A DNA stretch of 49,694 bases, taken from IMG/VR virus record IMGVR_UViG_3300025162_000069, positions 1-49,694 of that record. One strand, given 5' to 3'. Below the pieces are notes generated by a model. The model was not told the DNA's origin, made no database searches, and saw only the letters and a program-made list of their open reading frames with translations. Source of the DNA: a virus. Of the stretch, positions 13,205-48,083 are shown one piece after another; positions within the stretch are counted from its first letter, which is position 1, and each line of letters begins with the position of its first letter. Position numbers and translations under genes: made by a program.

Positions 13205-13239
13205 TTTATTTATATATAGAGTATAAAATTATTATACTT

Positions 13240-24437: not shown

Positions 24438-25421
24438 TTAAGCTGTGATTGGTTGGTACCTTTCACTATTTATAGTTTTCAACATCAAACTTTCTGGTGT
24501 ATCAATGCTACCTGATAGAACAGATTTTAATATTGCTGGACTGAATCCTGAAACTAGTCCTACATTCTTTGCTTTAAAGTTTGAAGGAACATTACCAAGT
24601 CTACCATTAACATTCCAGAAAATGATATCTGGCAATTTATAACCAGCCTCAGAATACATTCTCTTTATCATTGATAAAGCAGTATCATTTCCATTTTGAG
24701 CACATTGATTAAATTCCATATCAGAAATAATCAATATTTTAGTTGGCATTTCGCTCTCTGGAAGGTTATTCTTAGTTGCTTTATTCAATATCAACTTATA
24801 AACACCTTCTAAGTTAGTGCTCATACCCCATTCAGCACTTTCCAACTGACGAAGTCTTTCATACAATGAACCTTTCAAATATTGCATTGTTGGTTCACTT
24901 GAGAATGTAATAAATGCGTCCTTGAAAATACTTCTATTTCTTTCAGACATATATACACCCAATGCTACTGAAACTGACATTGGAAGACCTGACATACTAC
25001 CTGATACGTCGCAAACTGGAATGACTCTCTCATTCGAATCTGCCATGAAGTCTGGAAGATTATTCCATTGTGCCTCGACTGCTCTTTTATCTTCATGTCT
25101 CTTCCAAGCTTCATATAACATATGTGGAAACAAAACACCAGCCTTGATTTCTTCCTTACCTTCGTGTACCAGTTCAATATACTCATTGAAACGGCCCATA
25201 TCATTCTTTAAGAATGCTTTTCTATACTTGTTCATAGCAACTGAAGGTACATGTGAATAGGTAATTTCTTCCCAATCCTTTGCACACATTTTTTGCTCAA
25301 CAGTATTTGATAAACCAACAACAAGTTTACGATATTCCTTTGGGGATAATCCCATATACTTACGAACCTTGTTAAATTCATATCCTTTTCTACTTAACCA
25401 TTTTGCTAATAAATTTTTCAT
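24438..25421 (-). CDS. DUF2828/vWA protein, C-terminal half (split gene)
   Basis: These 327 residues carry the second half of DUF2828. LLAKWLSRKG and LSPKEYRKLVVGLSN are followed by VEQKMCAKDWEEITYSHVPS and AGVLFPHMLYEAWK. A von Willebrand A domain comes next, with MIDAS DVSGSMSGLP and later SDMEFNQC. The first half is encoded at 26255-26689. An endonuclease ORF lies between, and its last codons overlap the start of this piece. The joint in the ancestral gene would have been D-K-N-L-L-A-K-W. DUF2828 proteins resemble TROVE/Ro60 RNA-binding proteins in architecture. Confidence 0.85.
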   Translation of the reverse strand: MKNLLAKWLSRKGYEFNKVRKYMGLSPKEYRKLVVGLSNTVEQKMCAKDWEEITYSHVPSVAMNKYRKAFLKNDMGRFNEYIELVHEGKEEIKAGVLFPHMLYEAWKRHEDKRAVEAQWNNLPDFMADSNERVIPVCDVSGSMSGLPMSVSVALGVYMSERNRSIFKDAFITFSSEPTMQYLKGSLYERLRQLESAEWGMSTNLEGVYKLILNKATKNNLPESEMPTKILIISDMEFNQCAQNGNDTALSMIKRMYSEAGYKLPDIIFWNVNGRLGNVPSNFKAKNVGLVSGFSPAILKSVLSGSIDTPESLMLKTINSERYQPITA

Positions 25422-26265
25422 ACGTCTTAATTTTATTTTTATTGTTATTGTTTTTTATATCTTTTAAAAAATTCTGTGCATCAACTTCATCTTTAAATCT
25501 CTTTGCTTTTTGTTTATTAAATTCATCCTTATAAGGAACCTTCCAAACTTTTTCAGCAGTATTAAAATGATAACCTTTAGGTGTATATACAGCAATTTCT
25601 AAATATTTTTCATATTTTCTGTCCATATAAATTGTGGAATTATCATATAGTAAATCTAATATTTTTTTACTAACTCTATTTCCACTATAAATAAGTCTCC
25701 AATATTTTTCATTTTTTTCTAAATCTTCAAAATTATCACTTTTAATATTTTTATCTTCCAAATTTAGAACTTGTTGTAACCAATTTTTAATAGTTTCTAA
25801 TAATCTACTATTATAAGAAACAAAACCGACAGAGCATCTTGGATTTCTATTCCAATTATGTTTTTTATCTTTCCATTTTGAAAAAAATATAGTACCATCA
25901 CCATCTAAAAATCCTCTGGCAAAATGTCTTTTTAAATTATCAGGAACATTATTAAAAACAACATCATCAATTTGATAAGTCTTATTTACAACAAATCCAA
26001 TTTTTCTCAATGAGTCAACAGTTTGTTTACTACATATATTAAAACCAATCGCTTTATAAATTTTACCATTTTTATTTTTTACATCTTTAATAGAAGTTGG
26101 CTTATCTAAAATATTTGCCAATTTCTCAAGATGTGCTTTATCTTTTATTGATAACCTAACTGAAATCACATACTCTGATAAAGTAGCATCAGCATAAAAA
26201 AATCCAATTAAATATGCTTTTAATTCAGAGTCAATTACACTAAAATCAATATAATCATTTGTCAC
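25390..26265 (-). CDS. LAGLIDADG homing endonuclease inserted in DUF2828
   Basis: This 291-residue protein has two LAGLIDADG helices: LKAYLIGFFYADA near residue 20 and KRHFARGFLDGDGTIFF near residue 120, each with its acidic metal ligand. It begins at GTG inside the last codons of the N-terminal DUF2828 piece and ends inside the first codons of the C-terminal piece, in a different frame from both. No room is left for a group I intron core, and no intein splice motifs are visible. It is therefore a free-standing nuclease that has split the host gene in two. Confidence 0.9.
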   Translation of the reverse strand: MTNDYIDFSVIDSELKAYLIGFFYADATLSEYVISVRLSIKDKAHLEKLANILDKPTSIKDVKNKNGKIYKAIGFNICSKQTVDSLRKIGFVVNKTYQIDDVVFNNVPDNLKRHFARGFLDGDGTIFFSKWKDKKHNWNRNPRCSVGFVSYNSRLLETIKNWLQQVLNLEDKNIKSDNFEDLEKNEKYWRLIYSGNRVSKKILDLLYDNSTIYMDRKYEKYLEIAVYTPKGYHFNTAEKVWKVPYKDEFNKQKAKRFKDEVDAQNFLKDIKNNNNKNKIKTYEKFISKMVK

Positions 26266-26689
26266 CTTCTAAAGTTTCTTTTATATATGATAGAATTTCT
26301 TTATCCACTTTATCATTTTCACCTTCGCTCAACAAAAAAGTCAAATCATCATATCTTCCATATTCAGCAATATGTTTCAAATTTTTAAGTAAATATTCTG
26401 GATAATTCTTACGAAGAAACATAGCACAAATTCTAAAGAACCTTCTTTCTCCAGCTCCACCTCTTGGGTCTCTTGACCAGAACATAAGTTTTAAAGCAAC
26501 TGATGGATCTTCCACAATCGCCTTTTGGAAAAGGGTTTCAATATCTTTTTCTGACATTTTCCTTGAAGCTCCCGCTAAAAAGAACATATCAACATTTGAA
26601 TTCAAACTGGTTGAATTTGTTACCATACCATTATTTGTTAAGGTATTTTCTTGTCTTGTCACATTTACTAAATTTGATGCTGATTGCAT
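26255..26689 (-). CDS. DUF2828/vWA protein, N-terminal half (split gene)
   Basis: These 144 residues hold the first part of DUF2828: NTLTNNGMVTNSTS, then DMFFLAGASRKMSEKDIE, ALKLMFWSRDPRGGAGERRF and NLKHIAEYGRYDDLTFLL. The frame stops just after E-G-D-K where the nuclease ORF begins. Unlike most genes here it has a full Shine-Dalgarno, GGAGG, six bases before the ATG. Both halves keep an intact frame, so they may assemble into a working protein, as the split NrdA of phage Aeh1 does. Confidence 0.85.
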   Translation of the reverse strand: MQSASNLVNVTRQENTLTNNGMVTNSTSLNSNVDMFFLAGASRKMSEKDIETLFQKAIVEDPSVALKLMFWSRDPRGGAGERRFFRICAMFLRKNYPEYLLKNLKHIAEYGRYDDLTFLLSEGENDKVDKEILSYIKETLEGDK

Positions 26690-33611: not shown

Positions 33612-36600
33612 TTATAATAATGTTAATACTGCCTTAATTATTATATTATTTGCCGTTGAAGCAGGTGTATATCTCAAATAAGTAGTTTCATTTCCTTTAT
33701 CTGCATTTGTCCAGTTAGTCCAGTTAGCGCCATCATTAGTTGTTATTTGAAAACTACCAGAAGCTGGATTAGTATCAGTATTATCATCACATTGCATAAC
33801 ACCAGAAACAGCATCATATAATCTAACTCTTAAATTTGGAATAGTACCTCCAGAAAGTGCAAAAGGTGTAGCGAATTTCCAAGCAAACTGTTTACCTGAC
33901 ACTGATGATTTACCAACTGATGGTTGATAATGACTATCAGAAGTAACACCATCTTCCCAAGTTAAGCCCAGTGAAGTAATCTCAGGTGAAATACAAGTCC
34001 AATTAAGTATATCAAAAACTATCTTAAACTGAATTGAAGCCGCCGCTGTCACATTATATAAAGATGCTTCGTCATTAATTATAGTCCATGCACCTGAATT
34101 ATCAGAAATACCAGTTGTTCTATAATAAATATCATATCTTTCTTTTGAATAACTTCCACTACCACCTCTTTTTTCAGATGTATATACTCTATAAAAAGCA
34201 GTCGCATTAGTTGTGAGAATTTCTTTTGTTATAACATAAGATCCTTGTGCTCCAACTTCTATTAATAATAATTGTTGAGCAGCTGGAACGGCGGCAGTCA
34301 AACCTTGTCTTGGTACTATTAATGTTCTATCAGCATAGCCAATTCTCACAGAAAGCATCGTTGCAGCTACAGCAGGTAAATATGCACCAGCAATTGGATT
34401 AGTTTCAAAATTTACTATACCCCAAAATCTTTCTAATGGTAAACCTGGATTATAAATTCCCCTATAATTTCTAAATGAACCATTACTTAAAATTATAAAA
34501 TAATCATTAAACGAATCATATGCAAGTCCTGCCCAGTTATTTACAGGCTGTTGAATTGTTGCACCTAATGGTGGAATATCAGTTATATAATCATCTTCAC
34601 CAATTAATGTTGCGATTACTCTTCCATTTGTATCAGGCATATCAGCTTCGTTAGGTCCAATATTTACATATTGAATCGTTGTTGCATTAGCAAATGTTAT
34701 AACTACTTGAATACCTGGTTCTTTTCCAAATCCACCATTATTATAAGTCACACCACTAACACCAGTAAATCCATAAACAATAACTCTTTGGTTAACAGTA
34801 AAGTTGTGTGAAGCAAATGTTAATGTTGCGGTATTATTAAGTCTTGATCTTCTTGTAGTTGGCGTTGCCGCAGTAAATCTACTTATAACAACTCTTCCGA
34901 CTCTTGCAGCCGCAGTCCCACGAGTAAGGAATAAAGCAGTGACTCCTGAAATACCAACAGGATGATTAGCACCTGGTGACGCAATTGTAATCTGTGAAAC
35001 AGTAGCAGATGGTAAGTTAGAAGCATATTCTGATGTCATAATTGCAGAACTAAATCTTGAAGTATCTGGAACAGTTATAATTCCATTTTGTGAAGTTAAT
35101 CCTGAACTCAAATCTAATAAAGTTAGTGCAGGAGCAGCAACAGAATTTGTTGACTGTATTATATATACTTTACAATTACCATTATTCACACCAGTATTAT
35201 TTGTATTATCCAATGCAATATTAGAAATAGTTGAAAGTACATTATTTGTAGATCCAACTTTAGCAGGATACATATTAGGAGCAGGACTACATCCAACTGC
35301 TTGTCCAATTAACTGAGGTAAATTAGTTAAAACACCGTTCCAAGTCACACAATCATGTGAATATGCCGCAGTAAATGAACCAGCGCCCTTAGTACCTACT
35401 GCTGTAAATACTGTACCATTAAAACATACACCATTACCACCAGAAATTGCTGGAAACATTGTAACACCAGCACCAGTCCAGTTAATACCATCTGTTGACC
35501 AAGCTATTGTATGTGATGCTCCAATACCAACAGCACACCATCTTGGTGTAATTGCTGTACCTGGTGTAACTATATTACCTACTTGTGCACCCCAACACAC
35601 AGCGTTTCCTTGTGTAAATGGAGGTGAAGCACATGCTGTCCATTGAGTACCATTAGAAGAATATGCCATTGTCATACCACCAATTCCCATTGCAACATAT
35701 TGACTACCATTATATGCAATGCCATAACCTGCGGTTGAGAATGGAGAGTGATTTGCGCCACCATCAGCAGCTTGACCATAGCCAGTCCAGTTTATACCAT
35801 CAGGTGATGATGCTAATGTATTTGTACCTTGACCAACTGCCCAGAAATTTGTACCATCCCAGCACACACCATATGCGCCAGTAGTGAACACACCAGTAGC
35901 CGTAATACCTTGTGCGGGAATAACCCAGTTTACACCATCATTAGAATAAATAATAGAGTTTGTACCTACACCAACAGCAACCCATCTACCACCAACTCCA
36001 GGAATTTCACCATAACACACACCTCTACCTCTTGTAGAAAAGTTACCAACACCAGAAGCAATCGCTGTCCAAGTTATACCATCATAAGACCAAGCTAATG
36101 AGTTTGTTCCTTCACCTGCTGAAACCCATAATCCTCCTCCATAAGCAACAGCCCATCCTGATGTAGCATAAATTGCTGTTGCAACTGTATATGTAGCAGC
36201 ACCTGCTTGTGTAGCAAGTGTTGTACCGTTTTGAGTTGAATAAGACTGAAAGTTAGTACCAGAACCAACAACAACTGTTCTATCAATAACACCTGATCTA
36301 ATTAAATAACACATTCTTGGTGCAATTGTATTAATACCAGCAAGCAAAGTTACACCAGCCCAATCATTTGTAGTAAGTCCATAAACCCAAGCAAGTCCAC
36401 CTTGTAATGCAGTTGCTGCTGTAAAACCAACAATCACTTCTGTAGAACCAGAATTAACCCAAATATCTCTACAAGTATTTATTTCTGATGCTTTAGATAA
36501 AGTCATAATAATGTATCCAGCCCAAATCTGTGTTTTTTTATTCCATCTGTTTACTCTAACTGTTAAACCAGTAGCCATTGTAGTAACTGTATAAATATAA

Positions 36601-36797
36601 TTTGAATCAGCATATACGGAGTTGGCTAGTAATGCGCCATTACCTTGTTCAAGATATGGAATTACCCTTGGTAATGGTACTCGAATTACACCATTAGTAA
36701 CTTCCAAACCTCCAAAAATACTATTTTTTGTTGAATCATATGTATTTCCTGTTGTATACGACTCTGTAAAATCTATTGTGCTCCATTGCTTTGCCAT
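33612..36797 (-). CDS. Large tail fibre/adhesin with Asp-box beta-propeller repeats
   Basis: This 1061-residue protein has, in its first half, at least six repeats ending in an Asp-box-like S-x-D-G-x-x-W (YSNDGVNWV, SSPDGINWTG, YSSNGTQWTA, WSTDGINWTG). Each is preceded by WVAVGVGTNS-like strands, so a beta-propeller is likely. The rest is Thr/Ser/Gly-rich beta structure ending in a carbohydrate-binding-like segment. GC content is above the local average. It follows the collagen-like fibre gene by 17 bases. It is probably a distal receptor-binding or enzymatic part of the fibre. Confidence 0.82.
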   Translation of the reverse strand: MAKQWSTIDFTESYTTGNTYDSTKNSIFGGLEVTNGVIRVPLPRVIPYLEQGNGALLANSVYADSNYIYTVTTMATGLTVRVNRWNKKTQIWAGYIIMTLSKASEINTCRDIWVNSGSTEVIVGFTAATALQGGLAWVYGLTTNDWAGVTLLAGINTIAPRMCYLIRSGVIDRTVVVGSGTNFQSYSTQNGTTLATQAGAATYTVATAIYATSGWAVAYGGGLWVSAGEGTNSLAWSYDGITWTAIASGVGNFSTRGRGVCYGEIPGVGGRWVAVGVGTNSIIYSNDGVNWVIPAQGITATGVFTTGAYGVCWDGTNFWAVGQGTNTLASSPDGINWTGYGQAADGGANHSPFSTAGYGIAYNGSQYVAMGIGGMTMAYSSNGTQWTACASPPFTQGNAVCWGAQVGNIVTPGTAITPRWCAVGIGASHTIAWSTDGINWTGAGVTMFPAISGGNGVCFNGTVFTAVGTKGAGSFTAAYSHDCVTWNGVLTNLPQLIGQAVGCSPAPNMYPAKVGSTNNVLSTISNIALDNTNNTGVNNGNCKVYIIQSTNSVAAPALTLLDLSSGLTSQNGIITVPDTSRFSSAIMTSEYASNLPSATVSQITIASPGANHPVGISGVTALFLTRGTAAARVGRVVISRFTAATPTTRRSRLNNTATLTFASHNFTVNQRVIVYGFTGVSGVTYNNGGFGKEPGIQVVITFANATTIQYVNIGPNEADMPDTNGRVIATLIGEDDYITDIPPLGATIQQPVNNWAGLAYDSFNDYFIILSNGSFRNYRGIYNPGLPLERFWGIVNFETNPIAGAYLPAVAATMLSVRIGYADRTLIVPRQGLTAAVPAAQQLLLIEVGAQGSYVITKEILTTNATAFYRVYTSEKRGGSGSYSKERYDIYYRTTGISDNSGAWTIINDEASLYNVTAAASIQFKIVFDILNWTCISPEITSLGLTWEDGVTSDSHYQPSVGKSSVSGKQFAWKFATPFALSGGTIPNLRVRLYDAVSGVMQCDDNTDTNPASGSFQITTNDGANWTNWTNADKGNETTYLRYTPASTANNIIIKAVLTLL

Positions 36798-36814: not shown

Positions 36815-39800
36815 TTAAATTTGTATTTTTAATTGAACTGATATATCTCCACCTGGTGTTGTACTACCAACTTGATCTACATCTATTGATAAAATATCAC
36901 CTTCTGCAATAGAAGTTATATCAAAAGATGATTGAGTTCCATAGGTCTGACCACTTAAAATTTTTAATCTGTTAGATTGCGTAATATTCCATATACTCAC
37001 ACCATTTCTATATATATCAAAAATATCGTCCGCACCTTGTGGTCCAGTTCCAGAACTTGCATATGCTTTTAATATTGTTCCTACATATGGAACTGTAACT
37101 CTTGCTTTATTAGTACCAGTTGTTAATATAGTTCCTACTGCTAATAAAAAAGTAATATTGGATATACCTACACCATTTGTGCCAGAAGTACCAGCATTTC
37201 CTTTTGTTGCAGTTGAAAATCCTATCAACTCATTTAATGCAAATGTTCCATTTCCTACTATATATGTTACTGGCATATCATCTACTCCAGCACCACTTGT
37301 GAATCCAGAACTTAATTGAAATAAATGAAATTTTGTATTATCTTGTTCCGAAAAAATCTTAATATAATCTCCTACACCAACTGAATCTAAATATTTATCT
37401 ATATTTGCACCGTTTCTATCTGTTTCACTAACATATAAATGAGTAACACTTGATAATGTCAAATTATTAAATTGAGTATACCCAGTTGTTGTAGTTGCTA
37501 ATGTAGAACCACTAAATCTAAATAACATAGTAACACCACCAGTAACACCATTTATTCCTGATGTTCCATTAGTTCCTGATGTTCCTACACCTGATGTACC
37601 TGATGTTCCATTTGTTCCAACACCAGATGTGCCTGATGTTCCATTTGTTCCATTTGTTCCAACACCAGATGTGCCTGATGTTCCATTTGTTCCAGATGTT
37701 CCTACTCCAGATGTACCTGATGTTCCATTAGTTCCAACGCCAGATGTACCTGATGTTCCATTTGTTCCATTAGTTCCTACTCCAGACGTGCCTGATGTTC
37801 CATTTGTTCCTACTCCAGACGTGCCTGATGTTCCATTTGTTCCTACTCCAGACGTGCCTGATGTTCCATTTGTTCCAGATGTTCCATTAGTTCCTACTCC
37901 AGATGTACCTGATGTTCCATTAGTTCCATTTGTACCATTTGTGCCAGAAGTTCCATTAGTTCCAGAAATACCAGATGTGCCTGATGTTCCGTTAGTTCCA
38001 GATGTACCTGAGGTTCCGTTAGTTCCAGATGTACCTGATGTTCCATTAGTTCCAGAAATACCTATACCAGATGTACCTGATGTTCCATTTGTTCCAACAC
38101 CAGATGTACCTGATGTTCCATTAGTTCCTACTCCAGATGTACCAGATGTACCATTAGTACCTGATGTGCCTGATGTTCCAGTACTTATATTTGTTAAAAA
38201 TAAATCCAATGTATTACTTGAAGGATTATCAATAACTGTTATACCAGAATATGCATTTATATTTTTAAATCTTAAATCTACACCCAATTTATCGTGAAAT
38301 AATCCTTGACCATATAAACCTATATTTGAAGCTGTTGTAATACCTCCACTTACTCCTGTTCCAGTTGAACTTGACACTAAACCAAACTTTCCTGCTGAAA
38401 TAAATCTTGCTTGATTATCACTATTTAACTCAGTAGCACCTTGTTTAACAATTAACCATCCTCTAAATGTATCCATATTTAAATACGGATTAATTGCAAC
38501 TATATTATTTATATCTGCTAAAGCGTTTTCTTTTGAAGTATATACCTTTTGACCATATTGAATATCCACATTTAGGCTAACATTATCTAATGGAGCATAA
38601 TAGAATATCATTTGAATAGTATATCCTGAAGCAGTTACACCAGTTAATCCATTTCCAGTATCATATCTATTAGGGTCAATGCTTTGTGTGTAGTCACCAA
38701 ATTCCCAAGTTGAACCACTTCTAAAATAATAATTAAACCAACACTTTGATATCGAATCACTAATAACTAATGATGGTGTTTTTTTATCAATATAATAATT
38801 GTTATTATTATCAAATGTCTCACCAGCAGTTTTACTCACATTTAAATTTGATCCATTAGCATAAAAAACATTACCAGTAACATTAAATGCGCCAAACATT
38901 TGTAAAAAACTATCTAATTTAACTAATGGCTCTGTTATTGATACTGGCTCTGGTATAACATAATCAATATCACCACCATCATCATAATGTCCTAATGTTC
39001 CTAATACAATTAAATCTGTTCTTTGTGCATCTGTAAATTGATTTACTTGTTGAAAAACATTACCATTTATATCAATTGCAACATTTGATTCTTCACCATC
39101 CAACCAACTAAATTCTGATGTTATTCCTGTTAATCCACTCCAACTTATAATAGTTTTAATTGGATTTAATGGATCAGTATAATTATTTATTATATAACCA
39201 GTACCATCTGTTATATTAAAATATGTAGCAGTTGATCCAGTTGAAGGTATTTGTAAAATACCACCAGTCAATACACCAGTTGATTGTATATTTATTAATT
39301 CATTTGGATTTAAAGATATACCAGAAGATCCTGATGTTCCATTAGTTCCAGAAATACCAACACCTGAAGTTCCTGATGTACCATTCGTTCCAGATGTACC
39401 ATTTGTACCATTCGTACCATTTGTACCATTCGTTCCAGATGTACCATTCGTTCCAGATGTACCATTTGTACCATTCGTTCCAGATGTACCATTCGTTCCA
39501 GATGTACCATTTGTGCCATTCGTTCCAGATGTGCCATTTGTACCATTCGTTCCAGATGTACCATTCGTTCCAGATGTACCATTTGTACCATTTGTACCAT
39601 TCGTTCCAGATGTACCATTTGTACCATTCGTTCCAGATGTACCATTCGTTCCAGATGTACCATTTGTACCATTTGTACCATTCGTGCCTGATGTACCATT
39701 CGTTCCTGATGTTCCAGATGTACCATTTGTGCCTGATGTACCATTAGTTCCAGATGTACCATTTGTGCCTGATGTACCATTAGTTCCAGATGTACCATTT

Positions 39801-40468
39801 GTGCCTGATGTACCATTCGTTCCATTCGTACCGTTAGTGCCCGATGTTCCATCCGTTCCATTCGTACCGTTAGTACCTGATGTTCCATCCGTTCCATTCG
39901 TACCGTTAGTGCCCGATGTTCCATCCGTTCCGTTAGTGCCCGATGTTCCATCCGTCCCATTAGTACCTGATGTTCCATCTGTTCCATTCGTGCCTGATGT
40001 TCCATCTGTTCCATTTGTGCCTGATGTTCCATCAGTTCCATTCGTACCGTTAGTGCCCGATGTTCCATCCGTTCCATTCGTACCGTTAGTACCTGATGTA
40101 CCATCAGTTCCATTAGTGCCCGATGTACCATCCGTTCCGTTAGTGCCCGATGTTCCATCCGTCCCATTAGTACCTGATGTTCCATCTGTTCCATTCGTGC
40201 CTGATGTTCCTGAAGTTCCATCAACACCAGACAAGCCTGAACTTCCTGAACTTCCTAAAAAAACACCATCTTTACCAGATGTACCAGATGTGCCAGATGT
40301 ACCAGATGTGCCAGATGTACCAGAAGTTCCATCAGAACCTGATGTTCCAGAAGTACCAGAAGTATAAGTAAGACCAGATGCAACTATAAAATCAACAGTG
40401 CTTTTTAATTCATTTAATTTCCTTCTTATTGGTTCACCTTCTTCATACTGTAAAATCCATTCGCTCAT
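36815..40468 (-). CDS. Giant tail fibre with collagen-like Gly-Thr-Ser/Asn/Asp triplets
   Basis: This 1217-residue protein begins MSEWILQYEEGEPIRRKLNE, a short attachment domain. A first triplet region of about 350 residues follows (GTS, GTN, GTD units). A globular domain spans roughly residues 385-760, then a second triplet region of about 215 residues, and a final globular tip. G-x-y triplets with Thr form rigid trimeric rods, common in fibres of Bacteroidota phages. Codons for Gly (GGA, GGC, GGT) and Thr (ACA, ACG, ACT) are mixed, and the phage supplies matching tRNAs at 43-48 kb. AAGGTG serves as ribosome site and TATATATATG lies upstream. Confidence 0.92.
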   Translation of the reverse strand: MSEWILQYEEGEPIRRKLNELKSTVDFIVASGLTYTSGTSGTSGSDGTSGTSGTSGTSGTSGTSGKDGVFLGSSGSSGLSGVDGTSGTSGTNGTDGTSGTNGTDGTSGTNGTDGTSGTNGTDGTSGTNGTNGTDGTSGTNGTNGTDGTSGTNGTDGTSGTNGTDGTSGTNGTDGTSGTNGTDGTSGTNGTNGTDGTSGTNGTNGTDGTSGTNGTNGTNGTSGTNGTSGTNGTSGTNGTSGTNGTSGTNGTSGTSGTNGTSGTNGTNGTNGTSGTNGTSGTNGTNGTSGTNGTNGTNGTSGTNGTSGTNGTNGTSGTNGTNGTSGTNGTSGTNGTNGTSGTNGTSGTNGTNGTNGTNGTSGTNGTSGTSGVGISGTNGTSGSSGISLNPNELINIQSTGVLTGGILQIPSTGSTATYFNITDGTGYIINNYTDPLNPIKTIISWSGLTGITSEFSWLDGEESNVAIDINGNVFQQVNQFTDAQRTDLIVLGTLGHYDDGGDIDYVIPEPVSITEPLVKLDSFLQMFGAFNVTGNVFYANGSNLNVSKTAGETFDNNNNYYIDKKTPSLVISDSISKCWFNYYFRSGSTWEFGDYTQSIDPNRYDTGNGLTGVTASGYTIQMIFYYAPLDNVSLNVDIQYGQKVYTSKENALADINNIVAINPYLNMDTFRGWLIVKQGATELNSDNQARFISAGKFGLVSSSTGTGVSGGITTASNIGLYGQGLFHDKLGVDLRFKNINAYSGITVIDNPSSNTLDLFLTNISTGTSGTSGTNGTSGTSGVGTNGTSGTSGVGTNGTSGTSGIGISGTNGTSGTSGTNGTSGTSGTNGTSGTSGISGTNGTSGTNGTNGTNGTSGTSGVGTNGTSGTNGTSGTSGVGTNGTSGTSGVGTNGTSGTSGVGTNGTNGTSGTSGVGTNGTSGTSGVGTSGTNGTSGTSGVGTNGTNGTSGTSGVGTNGTSGTSGVGTSGTNGTSGINGVTGGVTMLFRFSGSTLATTTTGYTQFNNLTLSSVTHLYVSETDRNGANIDKYLDSVGVGDYIKIFSEQDNTKFHLFQLSSGFTSGAGVDDMPVTYIVGNGTFALNELIGFSTATKGNAGTSGTNGVGISNITFLLAVGTILTTGTNKARVTVPYVGTILKAYASSGTGPQGADDIFDIYRNGVSIWNITQSNRLKILSGQTYGTQSSFDITSIAEGDILSIDVDQVGSTTPGGDISVQLKIQI
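37545..38195. repeat. Triplet-coding repeat block 2
   Basis: Degenerate 9-bp units (variants of GGAACATCA/GGTACATCT) coding GTS, GTN and GVG. Long stretches are near identical, so recombination could change rod length. Confidence 0.85.
39325..40370. repeat. Triplet-coding repeat block 1
   Basis: About one kilobase of 9-bp units coding GTS/GTN/GTD in patterns of 9, 18 and 27 bases. Both strands stay open, giving long false ORFs on the plus strand. Confidence 0.88.
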
Positions 40469-42953: not shown

Positions 42954-43042
42954 TTTTGAAAATTTATTTATAAAATATTATAAATTAAAAAAATATAAAA
43001 GTTTAATATTTTTAGAGAGATTAATTTAAGATTTAGAATTGG

Positions 43043-43120
43043 GCACCAGATGGGATTCGAACCCACATTTTTCATTCCGTTATGCACATAGAGTTTAGGA
43101 AACTCCGCCATTACAGGTGC
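43043..43120 (-). tRNA. tRNA-Arg(CCU), D-stem missing, extended variable region
   Basis: Acceptor GCACCTG/CTGGTGC (one T-T mismatch), T-arm GTGGG TTCGAAT CCCAT. The anticodon arm GGAGT TTCCTAA ACTCT gives CCU, decoding AGG. Only seven bases (TAATGGC) lie between acceptor and anticodon stems, so both D-stem strands are gone but the D-loop GG remains. The variable region is 23 nt. A sister with the same layout is at 47523. Confidence 0.7.
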
Positions 43121-43121
43121 A

Positions 43122-43167
43122 TGGTGTCGGCGGGCTGCTCGCCAGCAGTGCGTTCCCGTTCCCGACA
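43122..43167 (-). ncRNA. 46-nt GC-rich hairpin ending in CCA inside the tRNA array
   Basis: Read leftward it folds as one hairpin: TGTCGG/CCGACA, CGGG/CCCG and CTGCT/AGCAG, loop GGCG. The 3' side is continuous and the 5' side has bulges GAA and AACGCA. It ends CCA and then, after one base, the tRNA-Arg(CCU) begins. At about 65% GC it stands out from an AT-rich genome. It looks like a minihelix with a discriminator A and CCA. Whether it is processed or charged is unknown. Confidence 0.6.
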
Positions 43168-43176
43168 TATTTTTGA

Positions 43177-43247
43177 GCAGAAGACGAGATTCGAACTCGC
43201 TACCTGAAGATTGAAATCTCCTACTCGACCTAATGAGCTTCTTCTGC
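43177..43247 (-). tRNA. tRNA with a shortened anticodon loop, Glu(UUC) or UCA
   Basis: Acceptor GCAGAAG/CTTCTGC, D-arm GCTC ATTAGGTC GAGT, T-arm GCGAG TTCGAAT CTCGT. The anticodon arm GGAGA TTTCAA TCTTC is one base short, leaving a six-base loop, so the register is unclear: UUC (Glu) or UCA (reads UGA). Glu is the conservative reading. Confidence 0.7.
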
Positions 43248-43254
43248 GTTATAG

Positions 43255-43326
43255 TAGCCTCACTGAGACTCGAACTCAGATGGCGGGATTAGAAATCCCG
43301 AATTTTATCCCTTAAATTATGAAGCC
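43255..43326 (-). tRNA. tRNA-Arg(UCU), canonical
   Basis: Acceptor GGCTTCA/TGAGGCT, D-stem ATTT/AAAT, anticodon arm CGGGA TTTCTAA TCCCG (UCU, reads AGA), T-arm CTGAG TTCGAGT CTCAG. 72 nt. AGA is the main Arg codon in this phage. Confidence 0.88.
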
Positions 43327-43332
43327 ATTTTG

Positions 43333-43417
43333 AGCCTTCTGTCGGATTCGAACCGACGTGTCTTAATTCAGATCCTGATTACAAGTCAGGTGCAATCGAC
43401 CGCTATGCGAAGAAGGC
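43333..43417 (-). tRNA. tRNA-Thr(UGU) with class II-like body
   Basis: Acceptor GCCTTCT/AGAAGGC, three-base D-stem GCA/TGC with loop TAGCGGTCGAT, anticodon arm CCTGA CTTGTAA TCAGG (UGU), 16-nt variable arm with a TCT/AGA stem, T-arm GTCGG TTCGAAT CCGAC. The body looks like Ser/Leu tRNAs although the anticodon is Thr. The upstream nuclease ORF ends at a TAG inside this tRNA's D-arm. Confidence 0.82.
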
Positions 43418-44242
43418 ATTATTATAAAATTCTAAAAACTTATCAATTTCATTTTTTATGTAATTTTTACCGTCATTTGTTTGTATTTCTTTCCACTTTA
43501 TTCTATACACTATAAATCCATTTTTTATCAATGTAAAATCTCTTAATTCATCATTTTCTATTCTATCCTCATAATTATGTTGCTTTCCATCTATTTCTAA
43601 ATCTATATTTTTATCTTTCAGATAAAAATCTAAAAAATAATTAGCATCACAATCTAAACCTAAACTTCTTTTTGAAATAACTTTATTGAATTTATATTTT
43701 ATCCCATTATTTTCTAAAACTATCTTAAAAAATTTCTCTGGATAACTTTCAATATTTCTACTTTGCCAGCCTTTATGTGTTCCATTCTTAACTTTTTCTT
43801 TTATTATCAAACTAACTTTTTCTTTCATACTGGAATTAGTACAACCAGAACTACAATGCTTACTATGTGATAAAGTATTGTTATTAAGTCTCCATACTAT
43901 GAACTCTTTTTTGCAATATGAACATATTCTTTTATGTTCCTTAATATTTTCGCTTAATTTTTCGTTTCTTTTAATGCCAGATAAACTTAAACTTACTTTC
44001 TTTTTTTGCTCATCTGATACTATTCGTCCTTTATTATTATAACTTGCAGAGCATGAACTAGAGCAAAATTTATTATTCTTCTTTTCATAACTTAATACTT
44101 TATCACAACATAAACAAAAAGATGGCTCGGAATAATATTTTTTAATTCTTTCTACCTTTAATTCTTTTAATTTTTTTAATCCTAATAAAATTGAATTTCT
44201 TGCATTGTCTTTATGCTCTTTTGATCCTAAATAATTATTCAT
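43403..44242 (-). CDS. Homing endonuclease: zinc fingers, NUMOD3-like helix, Vsr/DUF559-type nuclease
   Basis: This 279-residue protein has Cys pairs in CLCCDKVL and KFCSSSCSASYNNKGR, a NUMOD3-like SDEQKKKVSLSLSG, a second finger (CSYCKKEF), and a C-terminal PD-(D/E)xK/Vsr-like domain. The nuclease shows FFKIVLENNGIKYKF, then DFYLKDKNIDLEIDGKQHNYEDRIENDELRD and GFIVYRIKW. It ends AFFA and a TAG that all lie within the tRNA-Thr gene (43333-43417). So the nuclease sits directly 5' of a tRNA and uses its bases to finish its frame. Confidence 0.85.
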   Translation of the reverse strand: MNNYLGSKEHKDNARNSILLGLKKLKELKVERIKKYYSEPSFCLCCDKVLSYEKKNNKFCSSSCSASYNNKGRIVSDEQKKKVSLSLSGIKRNEKLSENIKEHKRICSYCKKEFIVWRLNNNTLSHSKHCSSGCTNSSMKEKVSLIIKEKVKNGTHKGWQSRNIESYPEKFFKIVLENNGIKYKFNKVISKRSLGLDCDANYFLDFYLKDKNIDLEIDGKQHNYEDRIENDELRDFTLIKNGFIVYRIKWKEIQTNDGKNYIKNEIDKFLEFYNNAFFA

Positions 44243-44297
44243 ATAGTATATAGTAATAAAAATATATCAAGTTTATACTATTTGAACCTAAATATTG

Positions 44298-44377
44298 TCG
44301 AGGTTGCAGGATTCGAACCTGCGATAATTGCTCCACATCCCAAATGTGGCGGGGTGACCTGACTCCCCAAAACCTCG
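44298..44377 (-). tRNA. tRNA-Pro(UGG)
   Basis: Acceptor CGAGGTT/AACCTCG, D-arm GGGG AGTCAGGTCA CCCC, anticodon arm CCACA TTTGGGA TGTGG (UGG), variable loop of 10 nt, T-arm GCAGG TTCGAAT CCTGC. Slightly long variable region. Confidence 0.87.
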
Positions 44378-44390
44378 TTGTTTGTTTTTG

Positions 44391-44461
44391 AGCTTCTGAC
44401 AAGTCTTGAACTTGCATTCTCCGAGTTACGAATTCGGCATTTTACATTAAATTACAGAAGC
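44391..44461 (-). tRNA. tRNA-Thr(CGU)
   Basis: Acceptor GCTTCTG/CAGAAGC, D-stem ATTT/AAAT, anticodon arm CCGAA TTCGTAA CTCGG (CGU, reads ACG; one mismatch next to the loop), T-arm GCAAG TTCAAGA CTTGT. 71 nt. Confidence 0.85.
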
Positions 44462-44481
44462 GTAAATTAAAATAGTTTTTG

Positions 44482-44554
44482 AGCAGACTGTGAGATTCGA
44501 ACTCACGTACCTGGGTTACAAAGCCAGAATAATAACCAACTATATTAAGACTGC
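44482..44554 (-). tRNA. tRNA-Thr(UGU), class I
   Basis: Acceptor GCAGTCT/AGTCTGC with one mismatch, anticodon arm CTGGC TTTGTAA CCCAG (UGU; C-C at the loop base), T-arm GTGAG TTCGAAT CTCAC. 73 nt; a normal-size second Thr(UGU). Confidence 0.82.
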
Positions 44555-44646
44555 ATAAAATATATTGATAAAAAAATCACAAATATTCAAAAAATATATA
44601 AAATGTGAGAAAAATTACAATATATTGATTATTTTATCACAATTTG

Positions 44647-44720
44647 TTTACGGAGTGGGATTCGAGCCCACGACCTCTTGCATGTCACACAAGTATTCTG
44701 ACCTACTGAACTATCCGTAA
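44647..44720 (-). tRNA. tRNA-Val(GAC)
   Basis: Acceptor TTACGGA/TCCGTAA, D-arm GTTC AGTAGGTCA GAAT, anticodon arm CTTGT GTGACAT GCAAG (GAC), T-arm GTGGG CTCGAAT CCCAC. The T-loop starts with C in place of T. Confidence 0.83.
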
Positions 44721-44729
44721 ATTTATTTG

Positions 44730-44805
44730 TATCCCCACAAGGACTCGAACCTTGGATCTTCTGCATGTAAAACAGACGCTTTATAGCCAACTAAGCGATG
44801 GGGAC
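44730..44805 (-). tRNA. tRNA-Val(UAC), copy 1
   Basis: Acceptor GTCCCCA/TGGGGAT, D-arm GCTT AGTTGGCTATA AAGC, anticodon arm TCTGT TTTACAT GCAGA (UAC), T-arm CAAGG TTCGAGT CCTTG. The nuclease ORF upstream ends at a TAG inside its D-arm. Confidence 0.9.
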
Positions 44806-45651
44806 ATTTGTATTTAAAAAATCTATAAATTCATTATAATTATAAAAAATTTTAAAATCTAATTTTTTTTCTTTATATTCATTCAATTTATCTAACCAAT
44901 AATTATATTCTTTACTTAACCATTTTTTTCTTTTTTCTCTATTAATTCCATCCAATTCAATCCATATATTTTTATCTGAAAAATATATATCACATATTTT
45001 GCTAGAATCTGGCAAACTCTTATGAGGTTCAAACTCTATTTTATTTTCTTCTAAAAACTCAAAACATTTTTTTTCAAAAGTACTCTGATAATAAATACCA
45101 TTAATAGTATAGCCACTCTTACCAAATCCTCCTTTTCTACCGATTTCTCTCAATCTTATTCTTTCATTAATATCTTCACATCTATTTTTAGCAGATATAC
45201 TTAATTTTAATTTAGATTCATCAGAAAAAATTTTTCCAATATATAATAAACTTAATTTCTGTTTATTTATTTCACCTTCATCTGTTTTATAAAAATTTTT
45301 CAAAGAACTAGATAACTTTTGTTTAGTTTCATCAGAAATAACTTTAATTTCTTTTTTATATTCTTTTTTACAATCATCAGAACAAAAATTTAATTTTTCA
45401 CCTTTTTCGTTATAAAAAGGACTTTGACAATTTTTGCACAATTTAGGTTTTCTTTTTTTAAGAAAATTAATTTTATTAGATTCAATAATGTTATTTAATC
45501 CAGTTTCACTTAAATTATAAACATATTTACCTTTTCTATTTTTATTATTAAAAATAGCGGCACATGAACTTCCACAAAATTTATTATTTCTTTTTTCATA
45601 TGTTAGTGAACAACCACAATTAAGACATTTTTTATTTTCCATATTTTCCAT
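44791..45651 (-). CDS. Homing endonuclease with NUMOD3 repeats and Vsr-like nuclease
   Basis: The protein (286 residues from Met at 45651) has zinc motifs CLNCGCSL and KFCGSSCAAIFNNKNR, a second finger (CKNCQSPF, FCSDDC), and two NUMOD3-like helices (ISDETKQKLSSSLK and FSDESKLKLSISAK). The nuclease domain is STFEKKCFEFLEENKIEFEPHK with CDIYFSDKNIWIELDG. A TATATATAG promoter lies just upstream of 45651, so the longer frame to 45690 is not used. Its last codons (VPIA, TAG) are the first 15 bases of tRNA-Val. This mirrors the nuclease at 43403. Confidence 0.83.
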   Translation of the reverse strand: MENMENKKCLNCGCSLTYEKRNNKFCGSSCAAIFNNKNRKGKYVYNLSETGLNNIIESNKINFLKKRKPKLCKNCQSPFYNEKGEKLNFCSDDCKKEYKKEIKVISDETKQKLSSSLKNFYKTDEGEINKQKLSLLYIGKIFSDESKLKLSISAKNRCEDINERIRLREIGRKGGFGKSGYTINGIYYQSTFEKKCFEFLEENKIEFEPHKSLPDSSKICDIYFSDKNIWIELDGINREKRKKWLSKEYNYWLDKLNEYKEKKLDFKIFYNYNEFIDFLNTNVPIA

Positions 45652-45725
45652 ACATATTTTATTACTATATATAAAAAAAGTTGAAGTCAAATCACATCTT
45701 TGTCTTTTATTTGCTTTTTATTTTG

Positions 45726-45801
45726 TACATCCTGACGGATTCGAACCGCCGATCCTCTGTGTGTAAAACAGATGCTTTAAAACCAACTAAGCGAAGGATG
45801 C
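45726..45801 (-). tRNA. tRNA-Val(UAC), copy 2
   Basis: Acceptor GCATCCT/AGGATGT, D-arm GCTT AGTTGGTTTTA AAGC, anticodon arm TCTGT TTTACAC ACAGA (UAC), T-arm GGCGG TTCGAAT CCGTC. D-arm and anticodon stem are close to copy 1, so the two are recent duplicates. Confidence 0.9.
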
Positions 45802-45812
45802 ATTTTAATATT

Positions 45813-45959
45813 TTATTCTATTTCAAATTTATTATTTTTTCTTCTCATAGAAGCATTAAAATAAAGTAATCTTTTCAATTTCATATCGCTTACTTTCAAA
45901 GCAAAGCCATGATTTGAATAACAATTTTTTTCTTTTCTTTTTTTGTTTTTAGAACTCAT
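45813..45959 (-). CDS. Small basic protein between tRNAs
   Basis: This 48-residue frame starts MSSKNKKRKEKNCYSNHGFA and contains SDMKLKRLLYFNASMRRK. It is rich in Lys and Arg and could bind RNA. It lies between tRNA-Gly(GCC) and tRNA-Val and might be a minor gene or chance; codon use is like that of the neighbours. Confidence 0.42.
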   Translation of the reverse strand: MSSKNKKRKEKNCYSNHGFALKVSDMKLKRLLYFNASMRRKNNKFEIE

Positions 45960-45976
45960 AATTTTTAATTTTAATT

Positions 45977-46064
45977 TGGAGCAGTAAGTGGGATTCGAAC
46001 CCACGATGCGCTTTCACTAACTGGATTGGCAACCCAGTTCCATCGGCCACTAGGAGATTACTGC
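45977..46064 (-). tRNA. tRNA-Gly(GCC) with class II-like body, CCA encoded
   Basis: Acceptor GCAGTAA/TTACTGC, discriminator T and encoded CCA. D-stem TCC/GGA with loop TAGTGGCCGAT, anticodon arm CTGGG TTGCCAA TCCAG (GCC), 16-nt variable arm, T-arm GTGGG TTCGAAT CCCAC. The Ser/Leu-like body carries a Gly anticodon. Confidence 0.85.
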
Positions 46065-46070
46065 AAAACG

Positions 46071-46156
46071 AGCGAGAAAAGGGATTCGAACCCTCGGTGT
46101 GATATTATCTTTCCAGCTTGGAAGGCTGGCGCAATCGACCACTATGCGACTCTCGC
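46071..46156 (-). tRNA. tRNA-Gly(UCC) with class II-like body
   Basis: Acceptor GCGAGAG/TTCTCGC, D-stem GCA/TGC? with loop TAGTGGTCGAT (shared with tRNA-Thr at 43333), anticodon arm CCAGC CTTCCAA GCTGG (UCC), 17-nt variable arm with a GAT/ATC stem, T-arm GAGGG TTCGAAT CCCTT. 86 nt. The D-stem here is GC(A)/(T)GC as in the Thr copy. Confidence 0.85.
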
Positions 46157-46158
46157 AA

Positions 46159-46842
46159 TTATTTTCTTCTATATTTTCTTCCTCTACCTTTATTTCTACC
46201 ACCATAAAATTCAGTTAATGAATGACAAGATGGACAAAGAGGTCTTAAATTTTCTTCTTTACTATTTAAATGATTACCATCAATATGGTCAACCTCTAAT
46301 GGGACAACACCTGTAAAAATATTAACTTCATTCCAACCACACACTGAACATTTATTGTTATATTTTTTAATAATATATTTGCGTATTGTTACAGACAAAC
46401 CTTCTTTATTAATACCAGTGTTACCATCAATTTCACCATTTTTCCATTTTTCTATAAGATTATCAGTTTGAAATTCTATTTGACATTTTTGTGAACAATA
46501 TTTACTATTTTTATTAACTAGTTCACATTTACAATTTAAACATAATTTAATTTCTGTAACTTTTTTTCTAGTTATTGTTTTATTATTAAATATTGCAGAA
46601 CAACTATTACTACAAAATTTTCTATTTTTATCTTTATTATCAATAAATTCTTTATTGCATTCTACACAATAAAATTTTTTTGTCTTATCTTTCTTATAAC
46701 TACTACTTTTTATATTTAATCTAAAACATCTATTTCTAATAGAATTTGGTGACATATTAATTTCATCTGAAATTTCATTATAAGATTTGCCATTTTTAAC
46801 CAAATTTATTATTTTTTCATCTAATTCTTTTATCCATTTCAT
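46159..46842 (-). CDS. HNH homing endonuclease
   Basis: This 227-residue protein has an N-terminal helix-turn-helix (KSYNEISDEINMSPNSIRNR), zinc motifs CVECNKEF and KFCSNSCSAIFNNK, a second pair (CLNCKCEL, YCSQKC), and a C-terminal HNH nuclease. The nuclease is CSVCGWNEVNIFTGVVPLEVDHIDGNHLN followed by LCPSCHSLTE. The finger KFCS-x-SC-x-A-x-x-NNK is the same module as in the two Vsr-like nucleases of the array, joined to a different nuclease. Its stop lies two bases before tRNA-Gly(UCC). Confidence 0.92.
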   Translation of the reverse strand: MKWIKELDEKIINLVKNGKSYNEISDEINMSPNSIRNRCFRLNIKSSSYKKDKTKKFYCVECNKEFIDNKDKNRKFCSNSCSAIFNNKTITRKKVTEIKLCLNCKCELVNKNSKYCSQKCQIEFQTDNLIEKWKNGEIDGNTGINKEGLSVTIRKYIIKKYNNKCSVCGWNEVNIFTGVVPLEVDHIDGNHLNSKEENLRPLCPSCHSLTEFYGGRNKGRGRKYRRK

Positions 46843-46898
46843 ATTTACTTTTTATTATTATATATAACAAAAAAGCATTTTTGTTTTCTTTATTTTAG

Positions 46899-46971
46899 AG
46901 CAAAAGGTGGGAATCGAACCCACGACATCATCTATACCACAGATGCATTCTACCTACTGAACTACAATTGC
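46899..46971 (-). tRNA. tRNA-Thr(GGU)
   Basis: D-arm GTTC AGTAGGTA GAAT, anticodon arm CATCT GTGGTAT AGATG (GGU), T-arm GTGGG TTCGATT CCCAC. Acceptor GCAATTG/CTTTTGC has two T-T mismatches, so function is less certain. Confidence 0.75.
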
Positions 46972-47039
46972 AAATTCGATTTTTCTTTCTCAACTATAAA
47001 AGTTTCAAGGAAATATAAAATCGTAAAACCCTACATCGT

Positions 47040-47112
47040 GGATACATACGGGCATCAAACCCGTGACTGGAGAGTGCAAAACTCCTGTGATAGTCAACTT
47101 CACCAATGACCC
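47040..47112 (-). tRNA. tRNA-Ala(UGC)-like, weak acceptor
   Basis: D-stem GTGA/TCAC, anticodon arm GGAGT TTTGCAC TCTCC (UGC), T-arm ACGGG TTTGATG CCCGT. The acceptor GGGTCAT/ATGTATC has two mismatches. It may be decaying or rely on editing; a good Ala(UGC) follows next to it. Confidence 0.55.
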
Positions 47113-47113
47113 A

Positions 47114-47190
47114 TGGTGGAGACGAGGATGAACGATATCCCAACCTCTTGAATGCAAATCAAGTGCTCTAGCCAATTGAGCTACGTCCCC
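47114..47190 (-). tRNA. tRNA-Ala(UGC), CCA encoded
   Basis: Acceptor GGGGACG/CGTCTCC, discriminator A and CCA encoded, D-arm GCTC AATTGGCTA GAGC, anticodon arm CTTGA TTTGCAT TCAAG (UGC), T-arm GGGAT ATCGTTC ATCCT. A GTGAAGAT/ATCTTCAC hairpin lies just upstream at 47196-47215. Confidence 0.88.
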
Positions 47191-47254
47191 AATTTGTGAA
47201 GATTCACATCTTCACTAATTCTAAATCTTAAATATGTCAAAGAACAAGAAATTT

Positions 47255-47506
47255 TTAGTTTCTTAATTCAAAATTATTATATCTTTCAATAAATTCGTCA
47301 AATGAATATTCTGTTGATCTATATTCTCTACCACCCCAATACCATTCTTCCCATTTAAATGTTGCAGAATTTTCATTTACTTCCAAATAGTCAAAAATAA
47401 ATTCTGCATAATTCTGTAATTCTTCCCAATTATCATTATCATTTATATATGATCTTGAAAAACTACTATCTTCATCTAACCATTTCACAAATTCATCTTT
47501 ATTCAT
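47255..47506 (-). CDS. Small acidic hypothetical protein within the tRNA array
   Basis: This 83-residue protein is very acidic and aromatic (FVKWLDEDSSFSRSYI, TFKWEEWYWGGREYRSTEYS). No domain is recognised. Acidic proteins of this size sometimes mimic DNA or bind nucleic-acid enzymes, but there is no direct evidence. It lies between tRNA-Arg (47523) and tRNA-Ala (47114). Confidence 0.65.
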   Translation of the reverse strand: MNKDEFVKWLDEDSSFSRSYINDNDNWEELQNYAEFIFDYLEVNENSATFKWEEWYWGGREYRSTEYSFDEFIERYNNFELRN

Positions 47507-47522
47507 AACAATTATTTTTTAG

Positions 47523-47601
47523 TGATCCAGGTGGGACTCGAACCCACATTTTCATTTCCATTATGCACATCTCGCTTAGAAGGCGGAGCCAATACAGGAC
47601 C
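47523..47601 (-). tRNA. tRNA-Arg(UCU), D-stem missing, extended variable region
   Basis: Acceptor GGTCCTG/CTGGATC, six to seven bases TATTGGC in place of the D-arm, anticodon arm TCCGC CTTCTAA GCGAG (UCU; one mismatch), 23-nt variable region framed by ATGTG repeats, T-arm GTGGG TTCGAGT CCCAC. The anticodon stem covaries with the sister at 43043, which supports this fold. Confidence 0.7.
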
Positions 47602-47609
47602 ATTTTTTG

Positions 47610-47684
47610 TCGGGGTGACAGGATTCGAACCTGCGGACCGATGTTTCCAGAACACCGTAGTATAACCAGCTGCAGTACACCCCG
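47610..47684 (-). tRNA. tRNA-Pro(UGG), atypical anticodon loop
   Basis: Acceptor CGGGGTG/CACCCCG and discriminator A are those of bacterial tRNA-Pro. The anticodon arm GGTGT TCTGGAA ACATC gives UGG, but position 33 is C instead of the near-universal U, and 37 is A instead of G. The D-arm is irregular. Confidence 0.68.
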
Positions 47685-47690
47685 ATAACT

Positions 47691-47731
47691 GAATTTCTAA
47701 GCTTCCGTTTTCTGAACGGTCTATGAAATTC
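47691..47731 (-). other. Nested hairpin between two tRNA-Pro genes
   Basis: Outer stem GAATTTC/GAAATTC (7 bp) and inner stem CCGTT/AACGG with loop CAGAA. No tRNA features and no T-run. It could guide processing of the array transcript. Confidence 0.4.
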
Positions 47732-47746
47732 TAACAGTCTAGCTTG

Positions 47747-47836
47747 TCTAATAGGTGGGATTCGAACCCACGTATGAACTTTCGTTGCCTCTTGATCCCA
47801 AATCAAGCGAGGTAAACCTGACTCCTCCACTATTAG
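47747..47836 (-). tRNA. tRNA-Pro(UGG) with 19-nt variable arm
   Basis: Acceptor CTAATAG/CTATTAG, D-stem GAGG/CCTC, anticodon arm CTTGA TTTGGGA TCAAG (UGG), variable arm with AAC GAAA GTT hairpin, T-arm GTGGG TTCGAAT CCCAC. It is the first tRNA after the attenuator-like terminator. Confidence 0.85.
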
Positions 47837-47852
47837 ATAACTTACTAAAAAC

Positions 47853-47882
47853 AAAAAACCTGAGTTGGTTGACAACTCAGGT
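47853..47882 (-). terminator. Terminator between the leader ORF and the tRNA array (attenuator candidate)
   Basis: Read leftward: ACCTGAGTTG, loop, CAACTCAGGT, then T5. The 5' arm ACCTGAG can instead pair with CTCAGGT inside the last codons of the leader ORF (47928-47934), a 7-bp antiterminator. The tRNA array starts 16 nt further on. Confidence 0.8.
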
Positions 47883-47909
47883 TTTTTTGATAACTAATTA
47901 AACTATATA

Positions 47910-48014
47910 TTAAATTAGGTACAATACACCTGAGCGTAGTCTGACTGGTCTGCCTCCTACGGGGGCTGTTGTTGTCGTTGCCACTGTCGCTGTATTTGTC
48001 CTAATGTTTTTCAT
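47910..48014 (-). CDS. 34-residue leader peptide rich in codons read by the phage tRNAs
   Basis: The frame begins MKNIRTNTATVATTTTAPVG and ends GVLYLI. Of 34 residues, 23 are Thr, Val, Arg, Ala, Gly or Pro, the six firm isotypes of the array downstream. Codons 5-25 are almost only these. Among them are AGG, AGA, ACA, ACG, CCA, GTA, GTC, GGA, GGC and GCA, the exact codons for 10 of the 11 firm anticodons. GC is near 50% in an AT-rich genome. A TATCTTTG promoter lies about 50 nt upstream and a terminator with antiterminator pairing follows. This is the layout of an attenuation leader peptide. Confidence 0.7.
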   Translation of the reverse strand: MKNIRTNTATVATTTTAPVGGRPVRLRSGVLYLI

Positions 48015-48064
48015 AATTTCTATTTATTATCTTGTTTTGTTTTTTTATATTCTTAATTTCTGTA

Positions 48065-48083
48065 CAAAGATAAAGACTTTTTC
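48065..48083 (-). promoter_or_regulatory. Host-type promoter for leader ORF and tRNA array
   Basis: Read leftward: TTTGGAAAAAGTCTT then TATCTTTG (48072-48065), matching TAnnTTTG and the other four copies. It is the only clear host-type box I see ahead of the array. Confidence 0.6.

Follow-up and report, generated by a model that had tools for sequence, protein, structure and literature searches.

A putative leader-peptide attenuator ahead of the tRNA array of a phage, and leaders that match their own tRNA arrays in other phages

The window analysed here is the whole stretch of 49,694 nucleotides of IMG/VR virus record IMGVR_UViG_3300025162_000069. Its minus strand carries a promoter, a short leader ORF, an intrinsic terminator and an array of tRNA genes, with the following features:

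48065 to 48072, minus strand: promoter box TATCTTTG, of the Bacteroidota −7 type, recognised from its sequence and from relatives
47910 to 48014, minus strand: leader ORF of 34 codons, MKNIRTNTATVATTTTAPVGGRPVRLRSGVLYLI, homologous to five other leader types
47943 to 48002, minus strand: sensor block, codons 5 to 24, mostly Thr, Ala, Pro, Val, Gly and Arg
47990 to 48005, minus strand: segment 1, with a covarying ATTAGG:CCTAAT core, the partner of segment 2 on a ribosome-free leader
47953 to 47958, minus strand: AGGAGG within the leader ORF, invariant in all homologues
47914 to 47934, minus strand: segment 2, with the core CTCAGGT, forming an antiterminator with the 5' arm of the terminator
47876 to 47882, minus strand: segment 3, ACCTGAG, common to the antiterminator and the terminator
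47853 to 47887, minus strand: intrinsic terminator, segments 3:4, with 15 pairs and a U tract
43041 to 47836, minus strand: array of 18 tRNA genes, with the isotypes Pro, Ala, Thr, Gly, Val and Arg

The promoter, the ORF and the terminator lie where the initial annotation had placed them (48072-48065, 48014-47910 and 47887-47853), and transcription is predicted to start at about 48059. The TATCTTTG box occurs at an unchanged position in the relatives L052 and L057/L059, and as TATATTTG in L055; across the leader units described below, TAnnTTTG lies at most 90 nt from the leader ATG in 17 of 41, compared with 1.6 expected. The terminator hairpin has an energy of −18.7 kcal/mol, and the leader RNA together with the terminator folds very stably relative to shuffled sequences (z = −7.0). 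The leader codons are GC-rich in a phage genome of 27% GC. The count of 18 tRNA genes was right, as the Rfam tRNA model detects 18 in the near-identical contig G028, although ARAGORN detects 17 in the window. Three HNH-type endonuclease genes and one small ORF are located between the tRNA genes.

The six isotypes of the array dominate the leader: they account for 23 of the 33 residues following the methionine, whereas the phage's own genes would lead one to expect 29.9% (binomial p = 3e-6). The sensor block ends with the conserved codons GGA GGC AGA CCA GTC. An exact codon is present for 10 of the 11 firm anticodons of the array, as the initial annotation had claimed, and no set of 33 consecutive codons from the genes of this phage covers more than 8. 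However, the number of exact-codon positions is not above background in the window leader (17 observed, 13.6 expected from codon usage, p = 0.10), nor is exact codon-anticodon matching enriched across all leaders (284 vs 282). Exact matching was therefore dropped as an organising principle and, as exact codons are not enriched, codon-by-codon sensing of the array's own tRNAs has no sequence sign. The leader matches its array by isotype and not by exact codon. At the third base, leaders exhibit 92 NNC/NNG codons vs 36 expected and 42 NNT codons vs 101 expected. This preference for rare third bases fits sensitive control codons, and may also serve RNA structure. The AGGAGG within the leader is a perfect Shine-Dalgarno-like sequence, although the likely hosts (Bacteroidota) seldom use such sites. 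It may be a mere consequence of the Gly-Gly codons or may act as a Shine-Dalgarno-like internal pause.

Further leader types were found via exonuclease-based relatives and a degenerate DNA pattern. These five additional types are related to the window leader but diverged, and each heads a tRNA array whose isotypes come from the same set: MKNLRTNTTTATATTTAPVTGGRPVGLRSGVLYLT (L052), MKNFRKNTAVATTTPVTGGRPVGLCSGVYLK (L057, L059), MKNISVNIATVAATATTPTTGGRPVSLCPSEILYLM (L055), MNNISRNITANTTATTPVTGGRPVAYLGDNNLS (L054, L063) and MNNISRHITTGTATTTATTPVTGGRPVAYLGDNNLS (L056, L060, L062). In all six homologous types, including that of the window, the peptide and its position are kept and an array of the same isotypes follows. 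The reading frame is conserved along with the peptide, the differences in length correspond to whole codons, and the T/A-rich part upstream is variable in its order and its length but constant in composition. A peptide alignment search in viral contigs returned the same phage only, as did searches with array-adjacent proteins as queries, and tblastn of the leader peptide in phages gave no matches, probably owing to its short length and low complexity. In 84,980 host genomes, the degenerate pattern matched only twice, in Streptomyces and Porphyrobacter, probably by chance. Promoter-only matches in G017 and G019 were rejected as unrelated AT-rich sequence without tRNAs.

The terminators of these relatives differ in sequence, and the ends of the ORFs change along with them. 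The proposed pairing of CTCAGGT (47934-47928) with ACCTGAG (47882-47876) is present in the window and is conserved through compensatory changes in the relatives, as TTCGGGT/ACCCGAA, CTCGGG/CCCGAG, TCCATCGG/CCGATGGA and TTTGGGT/ACCCAAA. Segments 2 and 3 form runs of 6-8 Watson-Crick pairs across five different terminator sequences, and the longest Watson-Crick run of each leader is with its own terminator arm. The pairing of segments 1 and 2, between the beginning and the end of the ORF, also covaries (ATTAGG/CCTAAT, ACTTTAGG/CCTAAAGT, ACATTAG/CTAATGT). Judging from the sequences, the predicted 1:2, 2:3 and 3:4 pairings are those of a classical attenuator.

The exonuclease also leads to the huge phages LR756501 (735 kb), LR756504, LR756502, LR745206 and LR756500. 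Huge phages with such arrays span 462-735 kb; the tRNAs of each are split over several arrays, most of which stand behind their own leader and terminator. According to PMC7162821, the five genomes above 634 kb belong to the Mahaphage clade, with Bacteroidetes hosts. Units were collected by a rule blind to composition: an ATG ORF of 15-50 codons whose end lies no more than 75 nt from a following intrinsic terminator, a tRNA being present within 1 kb. The leaders of these huge phages, and of other phages, differ according to their arrays:

Leu x5 array: leader MNNILHINLLNSLCLLGIKLIG
Trp/His/Phe/Lys/Ser array: leader MLQTSKHSKHFSSSSKWFTTFG..., with ...SKHSKHFSSSSKWF...
Met/Gln/Ile/Glu array: leader MNFRIINMIQEQMQQIQN...
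Arg/Thr/Val/Ala/Gly/Pro array: leader ...TPAPAVAFRRGTGTGTGTCVPAG...
Leu/Ser/Cys array: leader MKAMILSLCLSLSLSL...
Gln-only arrays: leaders MTTSFQQQQQQQINRTD (W03) and MTTTQQIQQQQINQTD
Lys-only array (W02): leader MRTILIIKKKKRDAIPIKIE
Arg/Ser array: leader MKTINNTSKSSSRSSSM...
Pro/Asp array, then Gln: leader ...PVNPQPQDQDP...
Leu-only array, the second array of G025: leader MKNYNNIMNLLLSNLLL...
His/Pro/Arg/Gly/Cys/Met array of Lak phage MK250024 (code 15): leader MKTLNMTYCMHPVCGMIHMFPCGGGRLM...
Pro/Glu/Gln/His/Leu/Arg array of phage phi38:1: leader MNVTLLHQEPLEQLRLPSR...
Phe/Val/Ile/Gln/Arg array, Caulobacter phage: leader ...YRQFVRQIQVVRNIR...
Val/Ile/Gln/Asn/Arg array, Caulobacter phage: leader ...YRNNVRQIRVRQFN...

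Lys, Gln and Asn/Leu arrays are preceded by AT-rich leaders that match them in composition. Some tRNA groups of the huge phages, such as W01 690585, have no detectable leader, and several ORFs picked up mechanically did not match (W03 L090, the alternative frame of L085, L092 7527, L101 5653, L110 37305 and L105 12248); whenever the choice rule picked one of these decoys, it was retained for the permutation tests. Lak phage MK250024 has a second leader unit as well. The small cultured Cellulophaga baltica phage phi38:1 (L110) has three units, with leaders at 35180-35283, 36650-36744 and 37890-37987. All three exhibit a near-identical promoter block, TAAGTTTTTTTATATCAAAAAAAAGTTGTATATTT, which suggests co-regulated or duplicated attenuator cassettes. 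In the Caulobacter jumbo phages CcrMagneto and CcrColossus, the units differ as their arrays differ; these units are GC-rich, so the match between leader and array is weaker evidence there. The same mechanical rule found no such unit in T4, T5 and one Campylobacter phage. The arrangement is widespread and not peculiar to the phage of the window.

The match between leader and array was evaluated by swapping arrays among leaders within each phage. In the huge phages, where W01-W04 share ancestry and the units are not all independent, own-array isotypes account for 37.7% of leader residues vs 16.7% after permutation (0/20,000), and the own array ranked first for 27 of the 32 leaders of the mechanical search (5.1 expected). 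Over 44 units from 10 phages, the corresponding values are 39.8% vs 19.7%, and 92% of array isotypes are present in the leader vs 66% (0/20,000 in both cases). The 2:3 pairing, in 34 distinct units, is specific to the own terminator, with a mean run of 6.3 vs 4.3 and a duplex energy of −10.6 vs −6.5 kcal/mol (0/20,000 in both cases). Chance is untenable as an explanation, given the permutation inside each phage, the units of the Lak phage and of phi38:1, and the rewriting of leaders from one array to another.

Folding of the leader transcript with a modelled ribosome gave the two competing structures that had been anticipated for the window. With the ribosomal P site at or before codon 22, the 5' arm of the terminator is fully paired upstream, whereas a P site at codon 24 or later leaves segment 3 free and allows the terminator, which forms; once the ribosome has moved past codon 23, the antiterminator is blocked. 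Without a ribosome, the 1:2 pairing hides segment 2 and the terminator forms. For all units taken together, a ribosome stalled on cognate codons gives the antiterminator a probability of 0.79, compared with 0.24 for one at the stop codon and 0.60 with swapped terminators (p = 5e-9). The cognate codons lie before the switch point in 486 of 588 cases (83%). In the ribosome-free equilibrium fold, the antiterminator has a mean probability of 0.77 and is favoured in many units, compared with 0.11 in the window; the modelled default state without a ribosome may differ between units. The 1:2 hairpin, which would terminate transcription without translation, is seen in the window and covaries in its clade, but is not general.

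The locus comprises a leader ORF rich in codons for the isotypes of the array, an intervening intrinsic terminator and a mutually exclusive antiterminator; in the model, segment 2 is left free by a stalled ribosome and covered by one that has reached the stop codon, except that the Caulobacter units show no clear switch at the stop codon. We consider it very probable, from sequence and modelled folds, that the window element is a trp/his-type transcription attenuator, mediated by the ribosome and placed before the tRNA array of the phage, which would be regulated by the supply of its own products. This interpretation, already put forward in the initial annotation, is supported by the conserved ORF, composition and pairing, and by leaders tracking their arrays in dozens of other cases; those of its refuting conditions that can be computed did not come true.

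According to this mechanism, transcription would start at about 48059 and a ribosome would translate the leader. When charged Thr, Ala, Pro, Val, Gly and Arg tRNAs are plentiful, the ribosome would run on and cover segment 2, and the terminator would form. If any sensed tRNA were short, the ribosome would stall in the sensor block, segments 2 and 3 would pair, and the array would be transcribed in place of termination. As the thing sensed would be the product of the operon, the result would be a homeostatic loop. The shortage could arise from the host destroying its tRNAs during infection or from phage demand exceeding supply. Loss caused by defence would be in line with work in which phage tRNAs stand in for host tRNAs that defence nucleases have cut (PMC10264068, PMC11555353, PMC12409363). 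There, as proposed here, phage tRNA arrays answer tRNA loss in infection; that work concerns the tRNAs themselves, whereas the present one concerns a putative control circuit, and neither a leader nor attenuation is mentioned in PMC10264068. The same design, with leaders rewritten for each array, would precede the separate tRNA arrays of many phages. We give roughly even odds to a general control in Bacteroidota and Caulobacter phages, whereby a shortage of own isotypes switches arrays on, the natural trigger being antiphage nucleases that destroy host tRNAs or a shutdown of host tRNA supply; the attenuators would then be detectors of tRNA-targeting defence.

Other explanations of the leader were considered. 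The nascent peptide, with its conserved ...PVTGGRPV, could stall the ribosome on a signal other than tRNA supply, the stall freeing the antiterminator. GGRPV and nearly all its nucleotides (AGGAGG.AGACCAGT) are kept in the six leader types of the clade, which is more than free codon content would need. Nevertheless, an arrest peptide is improbable, as the peptide is kept in the clade of the window only, the upstream T/A-rich part is free to vary in order and length at constant composition, and the leaders of other arrays are wholly different peptides that follow the array isotypes. Phages commonly carry short genes ahead of terminators, so the ORF could encode a small functional protein that lies by chance before an ordinary terminator, with the array unregulated. 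This is very unlikely, since it leaves unexplained both the covariation of the ORF end with the terminator and the match in composition between leader and array, and the peptides of different arrays are unrelated.

The very stable fold of the leader would also be expected of an untranslated, structured RNA acting as a riboswitch, with the 1:2 hairpin as the binding site of a ligand or protein. However, the conserved frame and peptide, the length changes by whole codons and the match at the amino acid level make such a riboswitch hardly plausible, and no Rfam family other than tRNA scored above the cut-off. Finally, the GC-rich codons in a genome poor in GC could be a by-product of the neighbouring GC-rich tRNA genes, with a coincidental isotype match. 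This is contradicted because the permutation tests never reached the observed match (0/20,000), and the Lys, Gln and Asn/Leu arrays have matching AT-rich leaders; we regard it as extremely unlikely. The attenuator hypothesis predicts that leader amino acids track their own array, and none of these rivals does.

Ribosome-mediated attenuation is known from the trp, his, thr, leu and ilv leaders, which control amino acid biosynthesis operons in enterobacteria. The phage units resemble these in their short leader ORF with control codons, their 1:2, 2:3 and 3:4 segments and their intrinsic terminator before the operon. In contrast, the phage operon makes tRNAs, so that the product is the sensed decoder, and a single leader can match as many as about 11 isotypes, with several leaders per genome. 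T-box riboswitches bind tRNA directly, without translation. They share with the phage units a readthrough of transcription that answers tRNA charging (here predicted), whereas the phage leader is predicted to be translated; no T-box or specifier structure scored above the cut-off of the Rfam model, tRNA being the sole match. Papers on huge phages (PMC7162821) and Lak phages (PMC6784885, PMC8346664) concern tRNA-rich genomes of the same groups, from which we examined LR756500-LR756504, LR745206 and MK250024; their main texts do not mention leaders or attenuators. In open-access PMC full text, the scope of our search, we found no leader-peptide attenuation of tRNA arrays, in agreement with the initial annotation. 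The class of mechanism is old, but its use on tRNA genes, with self-sensing of the product and many isotypes per leader, appears to be new.

It has been an open question for decades why phages have large tRNA arrays and under what conditions these are used. The leaders spell out, isotype by isotype, what each array would respond to, and the leader peptide would predict the inducing shortage. Read across a genome, the leaders would indicate the tRNAs whose loss a phage expects. The arrays would form a new class of tRNA genes regulated by feedback from their product, and the leaders a natural set of sensors for multiple amino acids.

Several other features were observed. In L084 (W02:C1 398000-406000), downstream of the Lys-only leader, an ORF ending in ...GVGIGIDRLIMLALNYRNISDVITFPC immediately precedes a tRNA-Lys gene (7265, reverse strand), and its end resembles the C-terminus of lysyl-tRNA synthetase. 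In the window, two different TnpB-like transposon-associated proteins are encoded at 9758-11002 (minus strand) and 13195-14412 (plus strand), the latter with a zinc ribbon, CSNCG...CPKCG. A Ro60/TROVE-like protein is seemingly split in two by a homing-endonuclease-like ORF (24438-25421, 25390-26265 and 26255-26689, all minus strand). The 1217-residue protein encoded at 36815-40468 (minus strand) exhibits long TSGTSGTNGTDG collagen-like repeats, and the opposite strand is also open over long stretches. Many proteins share a similar short N-terminal motif (MKIKKVNE, MKYIKEFTQYE, MNHIKKFNE, MEYLKTFESYN), at 1495, 28236, 30502, 32378 (minus strand), 48480 (minus strand) and 49138 (minus strand). 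The motif resembles the capsid-targeting N-terminus of T4 internal proteins, and these proteins may be packaged and injected.
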